Assembly (NCBI RefSeq): GCF_903944925.1
Contig: NZ_CAJATU010000155.1
Span: 124,001-188,000, forward strand
Direction of reading: 5' to 3'
Length of the DNA stretch: 64,000 bases
From: an uncultured Rhodopila sp.
GTDB lineage: Bacteria; Pseudomonadota; Alphaproteobacteria; Acetobacterales; Acetobacteraceae
The notes below the pieces were generated by a model. The model was not told the origin of the DNA and did no database searches. It saw nothing but the letters and a program-made list of their open reading frames with translations. Position numbers and translations under genes: made by a program. Each line of letters begins with the position of its first letter. The stretch's first letter is position 1. This document shows positions 23,967 to 64,000 of this stretch, piece by piece.

Positions 23967-25961
23967 TCAGGTGATCAGGTGGCTGAGCCAGTCTGACAAC
24001 GTGGCATTTGACGTCCCGTCGATCGTCGCGATCGCCACGCCCGTCCCGCCGGAGGTTGGCGCAACCGACAGAACGGTGCCCGTTGCGGACCCGGCCAGCG
24101 TCACATAGTTCGCCAGCGTCGAGGCTGCCCCGTTCCAGTCGGTCGCGGCGAGCGCCGCCTTCAGGTCCAGCGTATCCCCTGTTGCCAGGATGTCGTTGGT
24201 GAACGTGTCGCTACCCTTGCCCGCAGCGGGAAGGATGTATGTGTTCCGCTGCCCGGTGTCGGTGATCGTGTCGGACCCGCCGGACAGGCTTACGATGTCA
24301 GCCGAACCGCTGAGAAACAGCATGTGGTCGCCGGAGGTAGCCACCACGGAGACCTGGCTCTGGCTGACCGTGTTGCCTGCCGCCCCCGTGGAAAGCGTTA
24401 TCGGCGCCGGCAGCGGACTCGCGCCGGTTCCAGCCTGCGGCGACCATGCTGCCGCCGGGCTCGTCTTGCCCCACCAGAGGTTATTCGCGTTCTCCTGCCA
24501 GACCTCGTTATTGACATAAGCCAGTTCGGTCACATTGGCGGTTGTCGTGTCGGCGACACCATTCACCGCGACCTGGCCGGAACCGGTGATGGACCAGGTG
24601 TTGCCGCTCGCGTCGGTGATCGTGGCCGCCGAGCCGGCCAAAACCATCGAGTCATTCGCCGAAGCCGTTACGACGGGAGTTGGTGCGGGTGCCGCCGCCG
24701 GCAACGGGCTGGTCGCCGTACCGCCATTCGAATCCCAGCTGGTGCCGGTCCACTGCCACCACAGATTGGTGCCGTTTTCCTGCCAGACGCTGCCGTTGAC
24801 GTAGGCCAACTCGGCCACGCCCGAACTGTAACCGGCAGCCTGGCCGTTGATCTCCGCTGCGCCGTTGACGATCGTCCAGGTGTTGCCGAATGCGTCCGCG
24901 ATTGAGCCGGTGGCCCCGGCAAGCAATGTCATATCATTGGCCGAAGGCGTCGGCGCGGCGGTTGCGACTGTTGCCGGGGGCGTGGCAACCGTAGCGGGCG
25001 CCGATGCGGCGCTGGCCGCGGTCGCCGCGATGCCGGCGGCTATTTGCTGGCCGTATGCGGTCAGGCTGCTGCCGTCGCTGGCGGTCAGGCCGTCTCCCGG
25101 ACCACCCTGGCCCCACGACCACGCAACGTTCCCGTAGCCGCTCTGCTGGACCGCGGTGATCACCTGATTTGCATTCGGGTCGATTGTCGTGCCGCTCGTG
25201 CTGTTGCCGTATTCGCCGATGATTATCGGCAGAGTGCCATCGGCGCTGCTGATGGTTTGCTGCGTTTGCGCGATGTCGGCCGCGAGGTTTCCGCTGACCG
25301 CAGCCTGGTCGGTTGAGTAGCCCGTGATCCATCCGTAATAGTGGACGTCGCCGATGATGTTTGTCATGCCGGCGTAAACCGATTGCGTGTAGCCCTGCGC
25401 GAATGAGGACGGCGTGCTCCCGCCATTGATTTCGATCATGACCGGGTTGGCGTTGCCTGCGCCGCGGATGGCATCGTAGGTCTGTTGCTGCCAGGTAGAA
25501 AGCGCGGCGGGGTTCTGGCTGCCGGACGCGTCGGTCTCCGAAGGCTCGTTATTTGTGCCGAACCAGACATAGGGATTGCTGGCAAAGGCGGAGGCGATCG
25601 AGGAATACCAGTTGAGCTCCGTGGTGAGCTGCTGGCCGGTAAAGATCGTGCCAGAGGAGCCCCCGGCGTTTGAACCGTTAGAGGTGCTATGGTCCTCAAG
25701 TTCAACAACGATTCCGGCCGAGGTGAGCTGATCGACATAGGCTGATAGCGTGGCCGGGCTGGCGAAATCATAGATCGCCAAGCGAACGAAATTGATACCG
25801 GGGAAATCGCTTCGCAGCGTGCTTGCCGAAGGCTGGTTGCCTTCGATCACATCGACGCCTGCCGCCACAAAAGGCTGGCCGTTGGGCGCGATGATCTGGC
25901 CGTTCGTTACGTGAAATGCGCTTGTGGCTGAGGACGTCGATGCGGATGTAGTACCTGACAA
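23967..25961 (-). CDS. GH5-like secreted glycosidase with duplicated LWW module and type I secretion tail
   Basis: 664 residues, no N-terminal signal peptide. Residues about 15-300 form a TIM-barrel GH5 (cellulase-like) domain starting FHVTNGQIIAPNGQPFVAAGV, with the acid/base in WFGTNNEPSE and the nucleophile in IIIGEYGNS. An Ala/Pro-rich linker leads to two copies of a ~85-residue module (about 341-425 and 430-515) each ending VTELAYVN..VWQEN..NLWW. The last ~120 residues (DHMLFLSGSADIVSLSGGSDTI to SDWLSHLIT) resemble the VCA0849-type C-terminal target of type I exoproteins. Low-complexity Ala/Ser/Thr-rich composition fits an exported protein. Substrate unknown (beta-glucan likely). Confidence 0.8.
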   Translation of the reverse strand: MSGTTSASTSSATSAFHVTNGQIIAPNGQPFVAAGVDVIEGNQPSASTLRSDFPGINFVRLAIYDFASPATLSAYVDQLTSAGIVVELEDHSTSNGSNAGGSSGTIFTGQQLTTELNWYSSIASAFASNPYVWFGTNNEPSETDASGSQNPAALSTWQQQTYDAIRGAGNANPVMIEINGGSTPSSFAQGYTQSVYAGMTNIIGDVHYYGWITGYSTDQAAVSGNLAADIAQTQQTISSADGTLPIIIGEYGNSTSGTTIDPNANQVITAVQQSGYGNVAWSWGQGGPGDGLTASDGSSLTAYGQQIAAGIAATAASAASAPATVATPPATVATAAPTPSANDMTLLAGATGSIADAFGNTWTIVNGAAEINGQAAGYSSGVAELAYVNGSVWQENGTNLWWQWTGTSWDSNGGTATSPLPAAAPAPTPVVTASANDSMVLAGSAATITDASGNTWSITGSGQVAVNGVADTTTANVTELAYVNNEVWQENANNLWWGKTSPAAAWSPQAGTGASPLPAPITLSTGAAGNTVSQSQVSVVATSGDHMLFLSGSADIVSLSGGSDTITDTGQRNTYILPAAGKGSDTFTNDILATGDTLDLKAALAATDWNGAASTLANYVTLAGSATGTVLSVAPTSGGTGVAIATIDGTSNATLSDWLSHLIT

Positions 25962-34077: not shown

Positions 34078-36156
34078 TCACTCGGCCGCCAGCGCAACCT
34101 CGGCGGCTTCCTCACGCAACCAGACGGCGGTGTCGTGGAACACCGCTCCGCCGAACGGCGGCCCGGGATCGTCGCTGGTCAGGGCGTTGATGCCGATCCC
34201 TCCTTCGAAACATTCGCTCGGCCAGATGCTTTCCGCGACCAGCACGCCCGGTTGCTGGCCCGCCGCGATACGCACGTGCAGCACAACCTCTCCGCGGTCA
34301 TTGCCGAGCCGGATTTTCGATCCGTCCGTCAGGCCGAGGCGCGCCGCATCGTCGGGATGTAGCAGCACCGTCGGGCGTCCTTCCCGCCTGCGTCCCGATG
34401 CCATCTCGGAAAAGCTGGTATTGAGGAAACTGCGCGACGGTGCCGTCACCAGCCGGAACGGTTCCTTCGCGGTTGCGGCATCCACATTGTCCATGTGGTC
34501 CGGCAGGGCGGGCATGACGCCATTGCGGTCGCCCATCGCTTTCCAATCAGGTGCGAAATGGAAGCGCTGGTCAGCGGTCGGGAAGCCATCAAGGAAATGC
34601 CCGGCGCGGAACGGCGGTGCCGCATCGAACCAGCGTTGTTCGAGCAGCGTCGCGGCATCCGGATAGCCTGATGCCAGCAGCGTGGCATCGACCATTTCCA
34701 TCGCCGACATCTCGAACCCCCGATGCTGCGCCCCCAGCCGCCGTGCCAGTTCCCGCGCCACATCATGGTTCGATCGGCATTCCCCCGGTGGCTCTATCAG
34801 TTTGGGACCGATTTGAAGGTAGCTGTGGCCGCCAGCCTGGTAAAGATCATCATGCTCCATGAACATCGTTGCAGGCAAAACGATATCCGACCAGCGAGCC
34901 GTTTCGGTCAAGAACTGCTCATGCGTGACGACGAACAGGTCCTCGCGGCCGAAACCGCGCCGCACGCGGTTGCTGTCGGGACAGACCGTCAGCGGATTTT
35001 GGTTCTGGATCAGCATCGCGTGCACCTGCGGCCCGTCGCCGAGTTCGCTGCGGTCCCCGGTCAGCACGCTGCCGATACGGCTCATGTCCATCATGCGGAC
35101 CGTCGGGTCCAGCGCGTCGAGGCCCTCGATCAGCGTCTTGTCGATGCCGTAGATCCCGCGGTTGGACCACAGCGCGCCGCCGCCCTCGTGCTGCCAGGCG
35201 CCGGTGACGGTTGGCAAACAGGTCACGGCGTGCATCGCTGCGGAGCCGTTTCGGCTGCGCGTGAAACCGTAGCCGGCGCGGATGTAGCTTCGCTTCGTCT
35301 GTCCATACAGCGCGCCGAACGCCTCGATCTGCTCCACCGGAATGCCGGTGATCGCAGCGGCCCAGGCTGGATCGCGGGTGCGAAGATGCGCTTCCAGCGC
35401 CTCCGGACAATCCGCGTAGTCGCGCATATAGTCGCGATCTGCATAGCCGTCGCGGAACGCGATGTGCATGATCGCGCAAGCCAGCGCGGCGTCGGTTCCC
35501 GGCCTTGGCGCGATGTGCATGTCGGCCACCGCGGCTGTCGGCGTGCGGTATGGATCGATGACCGCCAGCTTTGCGCCGCGTTCCTTGCGCGCGCGCGACA
35601 CGTGGGTCATGACGTTGACCTGGGTGGACACCGGATTGCCGCCCCAGACGACGATCAGGTCAGAGCGCGCCATCTCGCGGGCATCGACTCCGCGGTTGGC
35701 GCCGATGCCGGCGAGCCAGCCGGCTTCCGGCAGGGACGTGCAGATCGTCATCTTCTGCCGCGAGTAGCGCATCACGTTGCGCAGCCGGTTGAGGCCGTCG
35801 CGCTGCACCAGGCCCATGGTGCCGGCGTAGTAGAATGGCCAGACCGCTTCGCTGCCGTGGCGGGCGGCGACATCCATAAAGCGCCCGGCGACGCGGTCCA
35901 TCGCTTCGTCCCAGGTGATGGATCGGAACTGGCCGGCGCCCTTGGGGCCGGTGCGAAGCAGCGGCTGGGTCAGGCGGTCCGGATGGTGGATGCGCTCGGC
36001 ATAGCGCGAAACTTTGTTGCAGATCACCCCGGCGGTGTAGCTGTTGTCGGCACCTCGGACTGCGCCGATGCGCTGGCCGTCGATGACTTCGACGGAGAGC
36101 GCGCAGGTGGAGGGGCAGTCGTGCGGGCAGACGGAGGATTTGGTGGCACGGGTCAT
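34078..36156 (-). CDS. Molybdopterin-dependent oxidoreductase (DMSO reductase superfamily)
   Basis: 692-residue catalytic subunit with an N-terminal 4Fe-4S site CPHDCPSTCAL...GVICNK, then the bis-MGD domains (ARSDLIVVWGGNPVSTQ, QNQNPLTVCPDSN, FLTETARWSDIVLPATMFME) and a C-terminal cofactor-binding beta-barrel (LHPDDAARLGLTDGSKIRLGNDRG). No Tat signal, so it is cytoplasmic. ATG at 36156; upstream codons in the open frame are spurious. No electron-transfer subunit or chaperone is adjacent. Substrate unknown; family members act on formate, nitrate, S-oxides or other oxyanions. Confidence 0.88.
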   Translation of the reverse strand: MTRATKSSVCPHDCPSTCALSVEVIDGQRIGAVRGADNSYTAGVICNKVSRYAERIHHPDRLTQPLLRTGPKGAGQFRSITWDEAMDRVAGRFMDVAARHGSEAVWPFYYAGTMGLVQRDGLNRLRNVMRYSRQKMTICTSLPEAGWLAGIGANRGVDAREMARSDLIVVWGGNPVSTQVNVMTHVSRARKERGAKLAVIDPYRTPTAAVADMHIAPRPGTDAALACAIMHIAFRDGYADRDYMRDYADCPEALEAHLRTRDPAWAAAITGIPVEQIEAFGALYGQTKRSYIRAGYGFTRSRNGSAAMHAVTCLPTVTGAWQHEGGGALWSNRGIYGIDKTLIEGLDALDPTVRMMDMSRIGSVLTGDRSELGDGPQVHAMLIQNQNPLTVCPDSNRVRRGFGREDLFVVTHEQFLTETARWSDIVLPATMFMEHDDLYQAGGHSYLQIGPKLIEPPGECRSNHDVARELARRLGAQHRGFEMSAMEMVDATLLASGYPDAATLLEQRWFDAAPPFRAGHFLDGFPTADQRFHFAPDWKAMGDRNGVMPALPDHMDNVDAATAKEPFRLVTAPSRSFLNTSFSEMASGRRREGRPTVLLHPDDAARLGLTDGSKIRLGNDRGEVVLHVRIAAGQQPGVLVAESIWPSECFEGGIGINALTSDDPGPPFGGAVFHDTAVWLREEAAEVALAAE

Positions 36157-36365
36157 GCGAGAGAGCTTAACCTGTACGCCGGCTCCATGAAACAGCCAAG
36201 CAACCGACCCGTCGCTTACGGCATCCAGCCCGCTGCTCTTTCCGGAGCTTGTCCGCAAAGTGTGAGCAGACCCGGGGTTGAGACCGGAGCCATCGGCCAA
36301 ATGACTGGCGGTTGTAGCGGTGCGGCGCTGACAGAGGCTATGAGTGCACCCGTCTGCGATCCGCC

Positions 36366-38984
36366 CTACGCAGTTTGCACCCCGCCGAGCAAGGTGTTCT
36401 CCAGTCCGTAAAGCCCGGTCACTGCACCGGACAACCAGCCGCCTGACCAAGTATGGGCATCTAAGGTTTGCGGCGCTAGCGTGTGAGAGACGCCATGCGC
36501 GGTCAGCAGAGCGTTGAAGTCCGTAATGTCTTGCTGGAACACATCGTAGCCGGAAATCCAGATACGATCCGCGGAGGTAAACGGTGCTTTCAGAGCATCA
36601 AGGAAACTACCGGTCAACTGATAGTTGCTCTGAAAATTCGCCTGCGTGCCATAATCATTGCTCGAGCTTGTACCGAAACTGTTGTAAGCTGCCATGTCCG
36701 CCGGGAAATCCCACGCCGCGGCAGCATTAAATACTCCCGGGTGCTTCAGCAGGAGATCGAGTGCACCGTAGCCGGACTTCGAGAAACCGACCAGCAAGTT
36801 CTTTTCGGTGCCGGTGGTGGCAAAAGTGCTGTCGACCCACGCAGGCAGGATAGTCGACATAAATGTCTCGTAGTTGATGGTCGGATTGAGAGGATTATTC
36901 GCATACCAGGGATCGATGGGGAAGATCGGCTCGATAATAGTTGCGTTATATTTATTTTCTACGTTGAGTTGGGCCATTTGATCAAGACCACTTCCATAGG
37001 TGGCTTGGGCGAGCCCTGGCTCCACCGGTAGCGCATAGAGGAAGCTATGCGTGTAGTTCGCCGAAGGATTGGTTGGTGTCAGCACGCGAACAGCGAACGG
37101 CTGCGATCCCGAGGTACCCCATGTCACATCATATATCTTGGCGCCGGTCGCATCGAGGCCCTCGTAGATAAAATGTGGCGTGTCCCCGACCCCGGTATTG
37201 CCCACGATCCCGATCGTTCCATCGCCATTCAAGTCTTGCTGGAAACTGGGCTCAAGCGATTCCAACGCGGTGCTCGATCCGGATGCCGTTGTAAATACAC
37301 TTGACAGGTAAGCGCCGGTGCTATCGGTGTCCCAGACGGTATATTGATCGGCCCCCGTCATCTTGAAGGCGACTTCGAACCCGGTCGCGGTCTTTTCCGC
37401 GCCAATCGGCGTCCATCCGCCGAATTGGCCGACCACAACGGGGGCACCACCGTAACTGAGAGTGACCGCCGTCCCACCATTGGGAGCAAGCAAATAGGTG
37501 TTGCCTTGCTGTTCCAGGCTGGTCGTTCCGAATGCCTCGATCACCTTTGGCGCGGTCCCTGCAGGTATACCGATCGTGCCATCGCCGTTCAGATCTTGCT
37601 GGAAACTGGGCTCCAGCGACTCCAATGCGGTGCTCGATCCGGAGGCCGTTGCAAATACACTTGATAGGTAAGCGCCGGTGCTATCGGTGTTCCAGACGGT
37701 ATACTGATCGGCCCCCGTCATCTTGAAGGCGACCTCGAACCCGGTCGCGGTCTTTTCCGCGCCAATCGGCGTCCATCCGCCGAATTGGCCAGCCACGACA
37801 GGCGCTCCACCATAGCTTAATTCGACCGCCGTCCCACCGATCGGGGTAAGAAAGTAATTGCTTCCCCGCTTGTCCAGGGTGGTTGTTCCGAATGCCTCGA
37901 TTACCGTGGGAGCGGTCCCGGCAGGAACCCCGATCGTGCCATCGCCATTCAGATCTTGCTGAAAACTGGGCTCAAGCGATTCCAAGGCGGTACTCGATCC
38001 GGATGCCGTGGCAATGACACTTGATAGATACGCACCGGTGCTATTGGTGGCCCAGACGGTATACTGATCGGCCCCCGTCATCTTGAAGGCGACCTCGAAC
38101 CCGGTCGCGGTCTTTTCCGCCCCAATCGGTGTCCATCCGCCGAATTGGCCGACCACAACGGGGGCACCGCCGTAACTGAGAGTGACCGCCGTCCCACCAT
38201 TGGGAGCAAGCAAATAGGTGTTGCCTTGCTGTTCCAGGCTGGTCGTTCCGAATGCCTCGATCACGGTGGGCGCGGGTCCGGCAGGAACCCCGATCGTGCC
38301 ATCGCCATTCAGATCTTGCTGAAAACTGGTCTCAAGCGACTCCAACGCGGTGCTCGATCCGGAGGCCGTTGCAAATACACTTGATAGGTAAGCGCCGGTG
38401 CTATCGGTGTTCCAGACGGTATACTGATCGGCCCCGGCCATCTTGAAGGCGACCTCGAACCCGGTCGCGGTCTTTTCCGCGCCAATCGGCGTCCATCCGC
38501 CGAATTGGCCGACCACAACGGGGGCACCGCCGTAACTGAGAGTTACCGCCGTCCCACCATTGGGAGCAAGCAAATAGGTGTTGCCTTGCTGTTCCAGGCT
38601 GGTCGTTCCGAATGCCTCGATCACGGTGGGCGCGGGTCCGGCAGGAACCCCGATCGTGCCATCGCCATTCAGATCTTGCTGAAAGCTAGGCTCAAGCGAC
38701 TCCAATGCTGTGCTTGATCCGGAGGCCGTTGTAAATACACTTGATAGGTAAGCGCCGGTGCTATCGGTGTTCCAGACGGTATACTGATCGGCCCCCGTCA
38801 TCTTGAAGGCGACCTCGAACCCGGTCGCGGTCTTTTCAGCGCCAATCGGCGTCCATCCGCCAAATTGGCCGACCACAACGGGGGCACCGCGGTAGCTAAG
38901 CGTGACCGCCGTCCCGCCGATCGGCGTCATGATGTAGTTGTTGCCCTGTTGATCGAGACTAGTATTTCCGAACGCCTCAATCAT
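36366..38984 (-). CDS. Five tandem W_rich_C-type repeats fused to an esterase domain
   Basis: 872 residues, no signal peptide. Residues 1-about 600 are five copies of a 120-residue unit: IEAFG.TSL, AVTLSYGGAPVVVGQFGGW, TPIGAEKTATGFEVAFK, GADQYTVWNTDSTGAYLSS, ending FQQDLNGDGTIG. The unit resembles the Trp-rich Synechocystis C-terminal domain (W_rich_C); the DLNGDGTIG end is a Ca2+-loop-like motif. The C-terminal ~270 residues are an alpha/beta hydrolase of the esterase-D type with nucleophile motif GFSKSGYGAL and a candidate catalytic His in LDAHTW. ATG 38984 has a GGAG RBS 8 bases ahead. Probably an exported surface or extracellular enzyme; substrate unknown. Confidence 0.8.
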   Translation of the reverse strand: MIEAFGNTSLDQQGNNYIMTPIGGTAVTLSYRGAPVVVGQFGGWTPIGAEKTATGFEVAFKMTGADQYTVWNTDSTGAYLSSVFTTASGSSTALESLEPSFQQDLNGDGTIGVPAGPAPTVIEAFGTTSLEQQGNTYLLAPNGGTAVTLSYGGAPVVVGQFGGWTPIGAEKTATGFEVAFKMAGADQYTVWNTDSTGAYLSSVFATASGSSTALESLETSFQQDLNGDGTIGVPAGPAPTVIEAFGTTSLEQQGNTYLLAPNGGTAVTLSYGGAPVVVGQFGGWTPIGAEKTATGFEVAFKMTGADQYTVWATNSTGAYLSSVIATASGSSTALESLEPSFQQDLNGDGTIGVPAGTAPTVIEAFGTTTLDKRGSNYFLTPIGGTAVELSYGGAPVVAGQFGGWTPIGAEKTATGFEVAFKMTGADQYTVWNTDSTGAYLSSVFATASGSSTALESLEPSFQQDLNGDGTIGIPAGTAPKVIEAFGTTSLEQQGNTYLLAPNGGTAVTLSYGGAPVVVGQFGGWTPIGAEKTATGFEVAFKMTGADQYTVWDTDSTGAYLSSVFTTASGSSTALESLEPSFQQDLNGDGTIGIVGNTGVGDTPHFIYEGLDATGAKIYDVTWGTSGSQPFAVRVLTPTNPSANYTHSFLYALPVEPGLAQATYGSGLDQMAQLNVENKYNATIIEPIFPIDPWYANNPLNPTINYETFMSTILPAWVDSTFATTGTEKNLLVGFSKSGYGALDLLLKHPGVFNAAAAWDFPADMAAYNSFGTSSSNDYGTQANFQSNYQLTGSFLDALKAPFTSADRIWISGYDVFQQDITDFNALLTAHGVSHTLAPQTLDAHTWSGGWLSGAVTGLYGLENTLLGGVQTA
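37204..38984. repeat. Tandem repeat, five units of exactly 360 bp
   Basis: The sequence ATCGT(T/G)CCATCGCC(A/G)TTCA recurs at 37207, 37567, 37927, 38287 and 38647, a strict 360-bp period in frame with the repeat-esterase gene. Units 2, 4 and 5 are nearly identical over long stretches, including silent sites, which points to recent duplication or gene conversion. The unit nearest the start codon and the third unit are the most diverged. Confidence 0.95.
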
Positions 38985-39590
38985 GGCGAACACTCCGCGG
39001 TTCGAAGTCGACTCTGCATATTCTTGAAGGGCAAAGCCCGGCTAGCCAACTCAGCCAAAATTGTTCTTTAGTCCGCCATCTACCTTTTGGCGCTTATCCA
39101 AAATAGTTAGTTTACCTTCGTCTAATTCGATCAAATCACGCTCCCGGTCGGCTGTGCCGGCAGATTCGGGGTTTGACGTAAGCCTGCATTCCCGAATCGA
39201 TGGGCCTCCACCACACTTGCGTCTGATGCAGATGCGAGCGCAGCACCACCGGGCGAGCGCAACTTCGAAAACGCAAGTGTGAATGCGGGGTGTATTATCA
39301 AGGTGCTGGGGTGGCGGGCGCGGCACCAGCACGTGATGTTGGCGTTTAGTTTCGTTGCTCTGCAACAGGTCGCTGAACGATCCGGGTTGACGCTACTGAC
39401 ACCGTCCGACATCGTCGAGAAGGACGCCGGTGACGAGCCATCGAGCCTCGGTTCCCTACGCACCGCAAGGAGGCGATGACTTAGTCCCGGCCGACACCCG
39501 GGAACAGTCGCTGCATTCGACGGTGCCCCCAGACGTATGGCCCGGCTTGTCCTGGCCTTGAGGGAGGTGCGGAAAACCTCAGGCACTGCT
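38985..39590. other. Intergenic region with a small inverted repeat
   Basis: No convincing gene in 606 bp. An AT-rich stretch about 39050-39135 lies upstream of the minus-strand repeat-esterase and may hold its promoter. An 11-bp inverted repeat, CACACTTGCGT (39212-39222) and ACGCAAGTGTG (39271-39281), encloses 48 bp. A plus-strand frame from 39279 has weak resemblance to a transposase C-terminus but I could not support it. Confidence 0.45.
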
Positions 39591-40553
39591 TCAAATAAAG
39601 GTCTCCACGATATCCTGGTGCAGCCCGCCGATCTCCCGCTGAACAAAATCGAGAAAAGGCGACAGGTCCCGCGACGCCAACTCCGTCACGTTCTGATACG
39701 TCATCGTGGCATTCAACTGGTCCAGCCGCTCCAGCGCCGCCGACATCCCGCGTAGCCCATAGCTGGTCCGCAACTGCGTCAGATGCCGCTCCACCCGCCC
39801 CAAATTCAGCCCGACCGACCGTGGAAACGCCCGGTTCGCCAGCAGGAAGCATGCGACCTCCTGCGGATGATACCCGTTCGGATGCTCCCGCCGATACGCG
39901 TGATACCCCGCCGCCGCGCGCAGCAGTGCGTTCCACTGGCCTGCATCGATATTGTCGCTCGCATCCTCCCGCGGCACCAGCGAGTGGAACCGCGTATCGA
40001 GCAACCGCGTGGTCTGGTCCGCCCGCTCCAGATACCGGCCGATCATATAGAAATGCCAGGCCTGGTCGCGGTAGAAGGTGCCCTCGGTGATGCCGGTATG
40101 CGACTGCGCGCCGTCCTTCAGCATGTTGCAGACGGCGGTGAAATGCTCCGGCACGATCGACGCCGCGTCCAGCGCCCTGATGTGTCCGTAAAATACGTTG
40201 ATCTGCAGCCACATCTCAGTCGAGATCAGTGCCCGCAACGTTCGTGCATTCTCCCGCGCGGCGATGATGAACGACTGGACGGAGGTCTCGTTCGTCGTAT
40301 CAAGCAGGTAGAACTCGCCCACGGTCCGCTGCGTCGCGATCTGGTGGCGCTTGTGGAACTCGACCAGGTCGCCGTTGATCCGCGGCACCGACAGCCAGTT
40401 GCGCGAATCGTCGGCGTCGCGAGCGAAGGTGTTGGTGACGTCCAGGATGCGGGCGAGGTTCTCGATCCGCTCCATATACCGCGCAAGCCAGATGGTGCCC
40501 TCGGCATGGCGGGCGATCAGGTAAGCGGTGTGCCGGTTCGGGTTGATGTCCAT
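39591..40553 (-). CDS. Alpha-E domain protein
   Basis: 320-residue helical protein of the 'alpha-E' family (DUF403-like), found almost always beside circularly permuted ATP-grasp proteins and thought to act with them in an uncharacterised peptide-ligation pathway. Opens with YLIARHAEGTIWLARYMERIENLARILDVTN and contains the later RYLERADQTTRLLDTRF copy of the same helical pattern. ATG 40553 overlaps the ATP-grasp stop (TAATG). The third usual partner, a transglutaminase-like protease, is not present on either side. Confidence 0.92.
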   Translation of the reverse strand: MDINPNRHTAYLIARHAEGTIWLARYMERIENLARILDVTNTFARDADDSRNWLSVPRINGDLVEFHKRHQIATQRTVGEFYLLDTTNETSVQSFIIAARENARTLRALISTEMWLQINVFYGHIRALDAASIVPEHFTAVCNMLKDGAQSHTGITEGTFYRDQAWHFYMIGRYLERADQTTRLLDTRFHSLVPREDASDNIDAGQWNALLRAAAGYHAYRREHPNGYHPQEVACFLLANRAFPRSVGLNLGRVERHLTQLRTSYGLRGMSAALERLDQLNATMTYQNVTELASRDLSPFLDFVQREIGGLHQDIVETFI

Positions 40554-42064
40554 TATGCGAGCACCCAGGTATCCTTGGTTCCCCCGCCCTGGGAGGAATT
40601 GACCACCAGCGTCCCCTGCTTCAGAGCGACCCGGGTCAAGCCGCCAGGCAGAACCCAGGTCTCTTTCCCGGTGACCGCGAATGGCCGCAGATCGATGTGG
40701 CGGGGCCGCACGCCGTCGTCGCACAGCGTCGGCGACACCGACAGCTTCAGCGTAGGCTGGCTTATATAATTAGACGGGTCCGCCTTCAGCAGCACCCGGA
40801 AATCCTCAAGCTGCTGCTTGGAAGCGTGCGGGCCTATCAGAATGCCATAGCCGCCGGATTCCGCGACCGGCTTGGTCACCAGTTCCGCCAGATGGTCCAG
40901 CGTATAGGCCAGCGACTCCGGTTCCGCGCAGATCCGCGTCTCCACGTTCTTCAGGATCGGCTCTTCCGAAAGGTAGTAGCGGATGATGCGCGGCATATAC
41001 GCATAAATCGCCTTGTCGTCGGCGACACCGGTGCCGACAGCGTTGGCGATCGCCACTGTGCCATGCCGCCAGCAGTCGATCAGGCCGCGCACGCCCAGCA
41101 TGCTGTCGGGATTGAACGCATCCGGATCAAGGAAGTCGTCGCCGATGCGGCGATAGATCGTATGCACCGCGGCGAGGCCGGCGGTCGTACGCATCCAGAC
41201 CTTGCCGCCTTCGACGGTCAGGTCGCGGCCCTCCACCAGGGGCACGCCCATCTCGCGCGCCAGGAAGACGTGCTCGAAATAGGCGGAGTTGAAGATGCCG
41301 GGCGACAGCACCACCACCTGCGGGTCGCTGACGGCGGCCGGCGCGATCTCCGCCATCGCGTTGTGCAGGCGCAGGCCGTACTCCTCGACACCGCGGACGC
41401 GCAGCCCGGTCATCAGGTCGGACATCACCCGAAGGCTCATGTGCCGGTTCTCGACGACATAGGCGACGCCGGACGGGGTGCGGGCGTTGTCCTCCAGCAC
41501 CCGGAATTCGCCGGTTTCGTCGCGCACGATGTCGGTGCCGCAGACATGCACATACGTGTTGTACGGGACGTTGAAGCCGACCATCGCCTCGCAGTAGCCG
41601 GCGTTCTTCAGCACCAGCGCTTCAGGAACGATCTTGTCGGCGAGAATCTTGCGCTCGTGGTAGATGTCGCGCAGAAACATGTTCAGCGCCCGGACGCGCT
41701 GGACGACACCGGTTTCGATCTGGTTCCACTCCGATGGCGTGATCACCCGGGGGATCAGGTCGAATGGCAGGATGCGGTCGATCGCCGTGGCATCGGAGTA
41801 GACGGTGAAGGTGATACCGCGTTCGAGCAGGTCGCGTTCGGCATCCGCCGCCCGCTGCCGCAAAGAGCTTATCGGCAGAGCTGCCAGCCGAGACAGCAAC
41901 AGCGTCAGGGTAGGGTGCTGCGGCTGCCCGGGTCTCAGCATCTCACAGAAGAATGAGTTCGGATCGTAGCCCTGCATCGTCCCGTGCGGCTGCAACTGGC
42001 TCTGACTTTGCGACTGGCTCGCTGCACCCACCGGCATCCGTGTCTCCGTTCTGCGATACGTCAT
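40553..42064 (-). CDS. Circularly permuted ATP-grasp protein
   Basis: About 503 residues. ATP-grasp-type ligase fold with permuted order; family landmarks include PFDLIPRVITPSEWNQIE, FLRDIYHERKILADKIVP, RTPSGVAYVVENRHMS, LRVMSDLM and GVRGLIDCWRHGTVAIANAVGTGVADDKA. Predicted to form an amide bond using ATP, partner unknown. N-terminus is Gln/Ser-rich and the start is uncertain: ATG 42064, 42037, or 41977 (MQGYDPNSFF), the last matching family N-termini best. Translationally coupled to the alpha-E gene. Confidence 0.9.
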   Translation of the reverse strand: MTYRRTETRMPVGAASQSQSQSQLQPHGTMQGYDPNSFFCEMLRPGQPQHPTLTLLLSRLAALPISSLRQRAADAERDLLERGITFTVYSDATAIDRILPFDLIPRVITPSEWNQIETGVVQRVRALNMFLRDIYHERKILADKIVPEALVLKNAGYCEAMVGFNVPYNTYVHVCGTDIVRDETGEFRVLEDNARTPSGVAYVVENRHMSLRVMSDLMTGLRVRGVEEYGLRLHNAMAEIAPAAVSDPQVVVLSPGIFNSAYFEHVFLAREMGVPLVEGRDLTVEGGKVWMRTTAGLAAVHTIYRRIGDDFLDPDAFNPDSMLGVRGLIDCWRHGTVAIANAVGTGVADDKAIYAYMPRIIRYYLSEEPILKNVETRICAEPESLAYTLDHLAELVTKPVAESGGYGILIGPHASKQQLEDFRVLLKADPSNYISQPTLKLSVSPTLCDDGVRPRHIDLRPFAVTGKETWVLPGGLTRVALKQGTLVVNSSQGGGTKDTWVLA

Positions 42065-42278
42065 GATAAACAAAACGGCTTGCCCGGGAAGGCATTTTCG
42101 GCGCGCGGGTTGGTATGGAGACGAAACCGATGCCGGGCGCGGGCAACGCGGGACACCCCACCAGGCGCGGCGGCGGTCTAACGCTCCTGTGATCGCAGGA
42201 AACCGTGTCCAAATCGCGACGAACTACCATTTTCCGGCGTGAGGCGTTCATGATCAATGTGAATGCAGGAGGGCAGCT

Positions 42279-60912: not shown

Positions 60913-61370
60913 GCGAACTGTCTCCCTGCGAGGCTGTCACAGAATAGGCACATCTACGGGTCGTTGACGATCCATCTCGCAGTACGCCGAGCGACGCCTT
61001 GGATCCGGTGCGTCGTAACGCTGGGTTATTGGTGTTGCATATTTGGCACCAGCCACGAGACATGCCAAAAGGGGCGCGCGTAAGCGACGCGAATTGCGAT
61101 GGTATCGCTAACGACGGTAGGGCGAGGTCCATCTCGTATTAAGATTTTTGTTGGTTTTGATGGTTTGGTTCTACATACTCGAATTCGTGATCAAGCCGCC
61201 GCGGTGATCGAGGCAGCTTTCGGGAGTGACATCTATCGCCTTGCCGTGCCAGGAAACGGCTCTGGCAGGTGAAAGGTCGTGCACGTCCTTGTACACAAAC
61301 TGGCCAGACCCACGGAATCCGGGCATCCCGGGGGCCATGTAGTCTGATACGCCACTAGAAGGGTTTGCTC
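60913..61370. other. Intergenic region with a possible small minus-strand ORF
   Basis: 458 bp between divergent genes. A minus-strand frame (61338-61171, 55 residues, starting MAPGMPGFRGSG and containing FVYKDVHDLSPARAVSWHGK) has GC-rich third positions and a protein-like pattern, but no recognisable family; it may be a small gene or a fragment. The AT-rich stretch at 61140-61195 and AGAAGG at 61357 probably belong to the promoter and RBS of the exporter gene. Confidence 0.4.
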
Positions 61371-63692
61371 GTGGACATATCTGACGGACACACTCCCGGG
61401 CCACTGGGGACTAACCGCGTACCTGCAACGTTAGCGGAAGCCGTTGCTGGCGGCGGCGGGTCGTCCGGCGCAGGCATGTCGTCCACGTCCGGGGGCACCG
61501 GACGGGGTCCGATCCATCCCAGGCTTTTGGCGATGATGGCGGCTGCCAGATACTATGGCCTGGAGTTGGATTCCGCCGATTTTCGCCTGGGTCAGGGCGA
61601 AACCTTCCCGACCGCGGCGGCGCTTTCCCTCTGGGCCCAGAACTCCGGCATGTGGTCACGCGGGTTGCGCCTGCGGTGGCGCCACATGTTTTCGGTGGCG
61701 GGCGCCGGTCCCGTTGTCCTGCTGTTCAATGACGGCTCCGCCGGGCTTCTGATTGGCGCGAACGCCGAGACGAAAACCGTCTTCATCCGGGATCCCCGTG
61801 CGCCAGAAGCCGAACCGCCGATCCCGGTCGACGAAATGCGCCTGGCCGAGGTCTGGAGCGGCGAGGTGGTTCTGCTACGCGCCGAGCGATCTCAAGAAAA
61901 AGCCGATCCGCCGTTTACATTGCGTTGGCTCGCCAGCGTCGTGTTGAAGGAGAAGAAGCATCTTCGCGATCTTCTCGTCGCGTCATTGGCAATCAGCGTT
62001 CTGACCATCCTGCCGCCCCTGCTGGTCATGCAGACGGTGGACCGGGTTATGGTTCATCACAGTTACTCAACACTTTTCCTCATCGCGGTGATCCTCGCGA
62101 CGATGGTTCTCTATGAAACCTTGCTGGGTTTCGCCCGCCGCCTGATCATTCTGGTGGTTGGCATCAGAACCGACGCGACGTTGAGCTTGCAGGTATTCAG
62201 CCGCCTGATTCGCCTTCCGCTTGATTATTTCGAGCGGCACCCGGCCGGCGAGACGATGTATAAAGTGAGCCAGGTCAATCAGGTCCGGCAGTTCATAACC
62301 GGCAAGCTGATGACCACCATTCTCGACCTGATCACTCTGGCTGTGCTGCTTCCGTTTCTGTTCTGGCTGAACGCGACACTTGCCTGGATCGTTGTCGTTT
62401 GCGCAACGATTATCATGCTCATTATTCTCGCCTTCCTCCGGCCTATTCGGGTGGTCTTCGGAAAAGTCATCACGGCGGAAACCCTGAAGCAGGCCGCCCT
62501 GGGTGAGACCATCTTCGGCATCAAGACCGTAAAGGCGCTCGCGATCGAGCCGCAGCGAAAGGCGCTTTGGGACGAGAAGACCGCAGAGGTCGGCAAGTGG
62601 CGCATGGAACTCGGAAAACTGTCGAACTGGCCGCAGACTCTCGTCACCCCCATCGAACGTTTTATGTACATGGGCACGATTCTCGTCGGTGCGTATCTCG
62701 CGCTTTCCGACGAGGGCGGATTCCAGATCGGCAGCATGTTCGCGTTCATGATGCTTTCGCAGAGGGTCAGTCAGCCGCTCGTCGGCTTGGCGCGTCTGAT
62801 CGAGGAATGGGAAGAGGTCGGCGCCTCGATGGGCCAGGCGGGCGAGGTTCTCAACCGGCCGCTTGAAGTCGATGCCGCGTCGGGTGGCCTGCGTCCGAAA
62901 TTCGCCGGTGCCGTCTCGTACGAGGACGTCACGTTCACCTACGCCGGGACCAAGATTCCAGCCCTCGATCGCGTCTCCTTCTCCGTCCCGGCCGGGACGA
63001 CGCTTGGACTCGTCGGCCGCTCCGGCTCCGGAAAGTCCACCATCACCAGGCTGCTGCAGGGCATAAACCGGGAGTATTCGGGCTTTCTGAAGATCGACGG
63101 CGCCGACCTGCGGGAGATCAATCTGCGACATCTGCGCTCCAGCTTTGGCGTTGTCTTGCAAGAGAATTTCCTGTTCCGTGGAACCATCCGAGACAATATC
63201 CTGTCCGGCCGTCCCGGCCTGACCCTCGAAGATGCAATCCGGGCGGCGCGACTGGCCGGCGCCGAGGAATTTATCGAGCGGATGCCCAACGGGTATGAAA
63301 CATGGGTCGAGGAAGGATCGCCAAACCTGTCCGGCGGCCAGCGACAGCGACTGGCGATCGCGCGGGCGCTGATTACCGATCCGCGCATCCTGATCCTTGA
63401 CGAGGCAACGAGCGCACTGGATCCGGAATCGGAGGCCTTGGTCAATGCCAACCTCAAGCGAATCGCCCGCGGGCGCACGATGGTCATCGTGACCCACCGC
63501 CTCTCCTCGCTGGTCGATTGCGACCAAATCCTCGTGCTGGACAAGGGCAAGGTGATCGATATCGGAACTCACTCCGCCTTGCTGGAGAAATGCGCGATTT
63601 ACCGCACTCTCTGGAACCAGCAGAACCGACACATGTTTAGCGAAGGACAAGGTCATGCAGCTCTCGCCCCGACCCTCCTCCAAGGCAATTAG
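61371..63692 (+). CDS. Type I secretion ABC exporter (HlyB-like permease/ATPase)
   Basis: 773 residues. N-terminal about 50-180 is a C39-like domain lacking the catalytic Cys (LAMMAAARYYGLELDSADF), as in HlyB/LapB exporters that bind rather than cleave substrate. A six-helix permease (about 195-470) is followed by the ATPase: GRSGSGKSTITRLLQ, NLSGGQRQRLAIARAL, ILILDEATSALD and the switch His in IVTHRLSS. GTG at 61371 is preferred to TTG 61365 because AGAAGG lies 8 bases ahead. The adaptor gene overlaps its 3' end. Candidate exporter for the GH5 and repeat-esterase proteins. Confidence 0.92.
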   Translation: MDISDGHTPGPLGTNRVPATLAEAVAGGGGSSGAGMSSTSGGTGRGPIHPRLLAMMAAARYYGLELDSADFRLGQGETFPTAAALSLWAQNSGMWSRGLRLRWRHMFSVAGAGPVVLLFNDGSAGLLIGANAETKTVFIRDPRAPEAEPPIPVDEMRLAEVWSGEVVLLRAERSQEKADPPFTLRWLASVVLKEKKHLRDLLVASLAISVLTILPPLLVMQTVDRVMVHHSYSTLFLIAVILATMVLYETLLGFARRLIILVVGIRTDATLSLQVFSRLIRLPLDYFERHPAGETMYKVSQVNQVRQFITGKLMTTILDLITLAVLLPFLFWLNATLAWIVVVCATIIMLIILAFLRPIRVVFGKVITAETLKQAALGETIFGIKTVKALAIEPQRKALWDEKTAEVGKWRMELGKLSNWPQTLVTPIERFMYMGTILVGAYLALSDEGGFQIGSMFAFMMLSQRVSQPLVGLARLIEEWEEVGASMGQAGEVLNRPLEVDAASGGLRPKFAGAVSYEDVTFTYAGTKIPALDRVSFSVPAGTTLGLVGRSGSGKSTITRLLQGINREYSGFLKIDGADLREINLRHLRSSFGVVLQENFLFRGTIRDNILSGRPGLTLEDAIRAARLAGAEEFIERMPNGYETWVEEGSPNLSGGQRQRLAIARALITDPRILILDEATSALDPESEALVNANLKRIARGRTMVIVTHRLSSLVDCDQILVLDKGKVIDIGTHSALLEKCAIYRTLWNQQNRHMFSEGQGHAALAPTLLQGN

Positions 63693-64000
63693 CTCACGCC
63701 GGGATGACCGGCATGATCCTACCCTGCCGGTTATCCTTGAATATCAGTCCCCGACGCTGGGCATCATCAATATGCCGATGCCGCGTATCGCGCGAGGTCT
63801 CGCTCTGACCGTCAGCAGCATGGTTGCTGTTCTGTTCGCGCTGACCGGCCTGATCAGCGTCGACCGGGTCGTGACCGCGCAGGGTGTCGTCGTTGCACGA
63901 TCGCCGACGATCGTTGTGCAGCCGCTGGAGACCGCTATCGTTCGCTCGATCGAGGTGCATGTAGGCGATATTGTCCATGCTGGTCAGATCCTGGCTCGCC
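63655..64000 (+). CDS. HlyD-family type I secretion adaptor (3' end outside window)
   Basis: Absent from the ORF track because it runs off the window. ATG 63655 opens MQLSPRPSSKAISSRRDD; a membrane helix (about 50-75, ALTVSSMVAVLFALTGLISV) is followed by VVTAQGVVVARSPTIVVQPLE and the start of the biotinyl-lipoyl hairpin, VRSIEVHVGDIVHAGQILA. This is the standard N-terminus of a membrane fusion protein bridging exporter and TolC. It overlaps the exporter gene by 38 bases. Confidence 0.9.
   Translation, partial: MQLSPRPSSKAISSRRDDRHDPTLPVILEYQSPTLGIINMPMPRIARGLALTVSSMVAVLFALTGLISVDRVVTAQGVVVARSPTIVVQPLETAIVRSIEVHVGDIVHAGQILAR

Follow-up and report, generated by a model that had tools for sequence, protein, structure and literature searches.

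W_rich_C modules (Pfam PF07483), whose family name reflects C-terminal occurrence, are almost unstudied in the open literature as searched by name or accession. One published protein, YP_382882.1, carries them ahead of an enzyme, in the order (W_rich_C)2-(PPC)2-subtilisin (PMC2605481). Repeat modules are combined with enzymes that act on exopolysaccharide (EPS) in the Rap/Ply proteins of Rhizobium, in which calcium-dependent EPS-binding modules are exported by PrsDE (PMC9298526). The gene described here lies in a 64,000-nucleotide stretch of DNA from an uncultured Rhodopila sp. (the window). Its product resembles YP_382882.1 in that the modules are N-terminal to the enzyme, but in YP_382882.1 the enzyme is a protease, there are only two modules, and PPC domains lie between them and the enzyme. 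The likeness to Rap/Ply is limited to the way of working (a repeat module joined to an enzyme on EPS, and the type I route of export); Rap/Ply modules are Ra/cadherin-like domains and not W_rich_C, and export has been demonstrated for Rap/Ply, whereas for the window protein it is predicted. A module-bearing exported enzyme is known in outline; the form described here is without the export tail of its closest relative.

A gene of five W_rich_C modules and an esterase domain

The gene occupies 36366..38984 on the minus strand. Its open reading frame starts with an ATG that is preceded by a Shine-Dalgarno-like GGAG (38985..38997, minus strand, direct reading of the sequence) and encodes 872 aa with 0 Cys, a pI of 4.05 and 2.5% K+R. 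The stop-to-stop frame is 891 aa, and because it is open for just 19 codons upstream of the ATG, a signal peptide or a longer N-terminus is ruled out; the N-terminus is W_rich_C module 1 itself, in agreement with the first-pass annotation, which had noted the lack of a signal peptide. A repeat search found five copies at an exact 360-nt spacing, with DNA 87-95% identical to the reference copy. Module 1 (38649..38984, minus strand, aa 1-112) begins at the initiator Met and is complete, but is without a leading linker; it is followed on the same strand by module 2 (38289..38648, aa 113-232), module 3 (37929..38288, aa 233-352), module 4 (37569..37928, aa 353-472) and module 5 (37209..37568, aa 473-592), each with its linker. 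Each module closes with DLNGDGTIG (residues 112, 232, 352, 472 and 592), so the five units of 120 residues described by the first-pass annotation are indeed present, and in register, and the W_rich_C similarity that it had suspected was found in a protein profile search, which gave five PF07483 matches (E 1.9e-102, 337 bits, against a curated cut-off of 26.2 bits). Singly, the modules score 69-75 bits, and all five pass the cut-off. Since they are in frame and under purifying selection (dN/dS 0.07-0.17), the array is not a chance pattern. The family name notwithstanding, the modules here are N-terminal, and they are nearly identical to each other; no other W_rich_C gene was found in the same genome. 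An AlphaFold model of the module (mean pLDDT 74; 78-93 over residues 1-80) is all-beta with a low-confidence end. Comparison of this model with the PDB gave no significant match (many of the weak matches were beta-propeller proteins, which were set aside), and a sequence search found no solved structure for W_rich_C. Pfam matches of the repeats to proteasome, FIST and LEA families were rejected as repeat-driven chance; NCBIfam proteasome models scored far under their cut-offs.

The remainder of the protein (36369..37190, minus strand, aa 599-872) is an esterase-like alpha/beta hydrolase domain, assigned from PF00756, alignments and a low-confidence model. The match to Pfam Esterase (PF00756; E 3.9e-9, 37.1 bits, curated cut-off 22 bits) is restricted to the nucleophile region, residues 703-757. 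Ser735 lies in a GFSKSG motif, and it is kept, together with Asp819 and His844, in relatives down to 26% identity (four further homologues aligned). In the alignment, Ser735-Asp819-His844 follow the order of an alpha/beta hydrolase triad, and this putative triad is well supported by comparison, since Ser, Asp and His occupy the same columns in plasmid-borne Streptomyces homologues that are 26% identical. By alignment, the esterase domain is 68-70% identical to its homologue in Bradyrhizobium neotropicale and 43% identical to one from Shapirobacteria, and the motifs G(F/L)SKSG, AAAWDFPADM, RIWISG and AHxW are invariant across the three. The first-pass annotation, which had seen a complete esterase domain with GFSKSG and a downstream His, thus read the parts of this gene correctly.

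The nucleophile region and the triad order are common to the window esterase and the PF00756 group (S-formylglutathione hydrolase, Ag85, feruloyl/CE1), but the window esterase has a GxSKSG elbow in place of the GxSMGG found in L075, for example. It belongs to a small subfamily with the WDFPADM motif, present in very few genomes. Both by sequence and by the low-confidence model, the best solved relatives are esterase-family hydrolases, the PDB matches being 4rgy, Ag85C and a feruloyl esterase; because the esterase model is poor (pLDDT 43), the matches obtained from it count as supportive only. The label esterase-D, used in the first-pass annotation, is loosely right in that there is weak similarity to S-formylglutathione hydrolases, but the corresponding model, TIGR02821 (S-formylglutathione hydrolase, esterase D), scores 15.6 bits against a cut-off of 281.7. 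This similarity, and the Streptomyces homologues, which show no obvious signal peptide by eye, would be in keeping with an intracellular hydrolase (one like S-formylglutathione hydrolase, for example) that carries the repeats as passengers. We regard that as very improbable, given how far the score falls under the family cut-off, the exported-type composition of the protein and the secreted-type enzymes that accompany its module relatives. The Shapirobacteria homologue has, by eye, a hydrophobic segment at its N-terminus, which speaks for an extracellular enzyme.

Relatives of the protein and of its architecture

The same esterase domain follows directly on a W_rich_C array in a B. neotropicale protein of 1213 aa (L006, NZ_LSEF01000025.1). 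Like the window protein, L006 has no signal peptide and no Cys; of the modules compared, those of L006 come nearest to the window modules (53-60%, with limited sampling). L006 differs in having three plus four modules that flank the esterase on both sides, whereas the window protein has five on the N-terminal side alone, and in carrying an RTX-type C-terminal tail ending SDFHIV, which the window protein lacks. This tail matches those of PueAB polyurethane esterase and EglC glycanase. As read from sequence, L006 is surrounded by an exopolysaccharide cluster with dTDP-sugar, glycosyltransferase, Wzc-like and Wza-like genes, and the Streptomyces esterase homologues adjoin a sugar nucleotidyltransferase gene and galE. 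These neighbourhoods suggest, by analogy, that an esterified surface or secreted polysaccharide would be the likeliest substrate.

The first-pass annotation considered an N-terminal array ahead of an esterase to be unusual. Comparison of 15 W_rich_C proteins or fragments indicates that the placement is uncommon, though less surprising than that annotation had it, with precedents in the published subtilisin, in a metalloprotease from a relative in the family (G371) and in the B. neotropicale esterase; the (W_rich_C)n-esterase arrangement is rare and not unique. Most of the 15 have about 108-148 aa after the last module, three (G266, G308 and an M10 protein of B. neotropicale) end just 3-6 residues past it, and the window protein and G371 are the two in which an enzyme domain, placed after the array, closes the protein. 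G371 contains at least three W_rich_C modules followed by an NF038122 metalloprotease, with no recognisable tail. In other proteins of the family the partners of W_rich_C include GH16 with CBM60, an M10 protease with RTX, or shared C-terminal tails of ~140 aa.

Genomic setting

The gene lies within a 3.4-kb stretch (36193..39598), between an Alpha-E gene and a molybdopterin oxidoreductase gene, that is missing from genus-mates. In blastn comparisons with seven of them the two flanking genes are conserved and collinear, and the gap between them measures 64 bp to 1.4 kb and differs in content. Genus-mates contain no orthologue, and searches of 193 relatives, 385 class genomes and 399 phylum genomes returned no close homologue besides the gene itself; the class and phylum samples yielded generic esterases only, and no relative of the esterase was found in viral contigs. 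GC3 is 0.66 in the gene versus 0.75-0.84 in its neighbours. Upstream of the gene lies what is left of an IS701-type transposase gene, its degraded 3' end (39216..39420, plus strand), recognised by DNA match and frame reading: this remnant of ~205 bp matches G007:C55 at 73% DNA identity, the translation of G007:C55 matches the IS701 transposase model NF033540 (1.9e-13), and the window copy itself has no Pfam match. The absence from seven genus-mates, the low GC3, the IS701 remnant and the modules, which are nearer to those of B. neotropicale than to W_rich_C proteins of the same genus (again with limited sampling), together make horizontal acquisition of the gene, as a unit and at a variable spot, very probable. 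Within 34078-42073, the gap between the Alpha-E/ATP-grasp pair and the molybdopterin oxidoreductase gene is an insertion site whose cargo varies across the genus: one relative has a phosphofructokinase-like frame there, another a PEP-CTERM-like protein, and two others almost nothing.

The main rival to a functional exported enzyme starts from the same insertion, which would have carried no more than the first half of a gene like that of B. neotropicale and left a truncated, decaying copy whose product is not exportable and is either useless or accidentally cytoplasmic. The missing tail and second array of L006, the adjoining IS701 remnant and the restriction of the gene to this one member of the genus fit such an origin. 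Against it, the frame of 872 codons is intact and the triad is kept, the protein ends about 11 residues past the esterase domain, as a standalone homologue does in the alignment, and G371 provides a second protein with the array first, the enzyme last and no tail. The low dN/dS of the modules also speaks against decay, as a record of past selection that was not necessarily exerted in this host. We consider decay possible, but on the doubtful side.

Export and proposed function

Our data are about evenly poised on the reading that we prefer, in which the protein is an extracellular serine esterase on a five-fold W_rich_C array that acts on surface or matrix polysaccharide and is descended from a type I-secreted protein. 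L006 is the same fusion with an RTX-type tail, situated amid EPS genes; the composition is acidic and Cys-free; other W_rich_C proteins are found with secreted-type enzymes; the modules are under purifying selection; and the genome encodes HlyB-HlyD and, on another contig (G000:C101), a PrtD exporter. On the other side, none of the known types of secretion signal is present in the protein itself, and nothing evident connects its neighbours in the window (Alpha-E/ATP-grasp and molybdopterin oxidoreductase) with polysaccharide. As an extracellular esterase, the protein is predicted to be one of the type I (RTX-like) secreted proteins. Its modules would each fold outside the cell, possibly with calcium bound in the DLNGDG loop, and the array may hold the enzyme on a polysaccharide of the surface or matrix, by analogy with the Rap/Ply proteins. 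The C-terminal domain would strip that polymer of ester groups (acetyl, for example), which makes the protein a candidate for an enzyme that frees bacterial exopolysaccharides of such groups.

Two features of type I RTX-type substrates are present in the window protein (no N-terminal signal peptide; acidic, cysteine-free composition) and two are absent (a C-terminal tail; RTX nonapeptides GGxGxDxUx, for which there was no PF00353 match). The lack of a classic C-terminal type I tail, noted by the first-pass annotation, holds for the protein and for the sequence downstream: no tail remnant was seen by eye in the three frames of the ~200 bp downstream, and tblastn of two type I tails against the window found nothing. 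A frameshifted tail downstream of the gene was accordingly rejected. A tail of the genus type was not seen elsewhere in the genome, in a search that had no positive control. With the second array and the RTX tail of L006 missing here, export of the tail-less form may proceed through a signal in the modules or in the remaining C-terminus, or may have been lost.

That the repeats could be the secretion or binding part, as the first-pass annotation put it, is possible. In its strong form, the W_rich_C modules are themselves the type I export signal and a classical tail is unnecessary, as might be suggested by G266, G308 and the B. neotropicale M10 protein, which stop so soon after the last module, and by the window protein and G371, which have no recognisable tail. 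Most W_rich_C proteins of the genus, however, keep 118-148 aa after the modules that resemble a conserved tail, and the window modules are N-terminal, whereas known type I signals are at the other end; we therefore judge this unlikely. Rather improbable, too, is the proposal that the modules are an export and surface-retention unit that replaces the C-terminal type I signal, so that an enzyme at the C-terminus could be exported tail-less. Whether W_rich_C modules can replace that signal is the most testable point. The window protein and L006 form a natural pair around the same esterase, without and with an RTX tail, in which it can be examined directly what the modules and the tail each contribute to type I export and to retention at the surface. 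In genus-mates, W_rich_C proteins (L151, L152, L153, L051 and L091) share a conserved C-terminal tail of ~140 aa ending GGHALI(S/G). It has no Pfam or NCBIfam match and is a candidate for an unnamed type I targeting domain.

The exporter that the first-pass annotation had placed near 61371 is real: a HlyB-type gene at 61365-63692, the best match of this gene although below that model's own cut-off, is followed by HlyD from about 63655. It lies 22 kb from the module-esterase gene and is not linked to it. From 61365 to 64000 and beyond (L047), HlyB-HlyD is followed by three genes assigned by eye, one for a Sel1-repeat-like protein and two that are glycosyltransferase-like. Among 16 window proteins compared, only a GH5 cellulase-like protein resembles the module-esterase in composition, and the other 14 differ. 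The GH5 protein (23967-25961, minus strand, 664 aa) has no Cys, a pI of 4.05 and, by eye, a type I-like C-terminal region, and probably joins the module-esterase as a further type I substrate encoded in this stretch. About 18 kb to the left of the window (L048:1293-3074) there is a glycine-rich RTX-like protein that aligns at its C-terminus with a part of the model for EglC glycanase.
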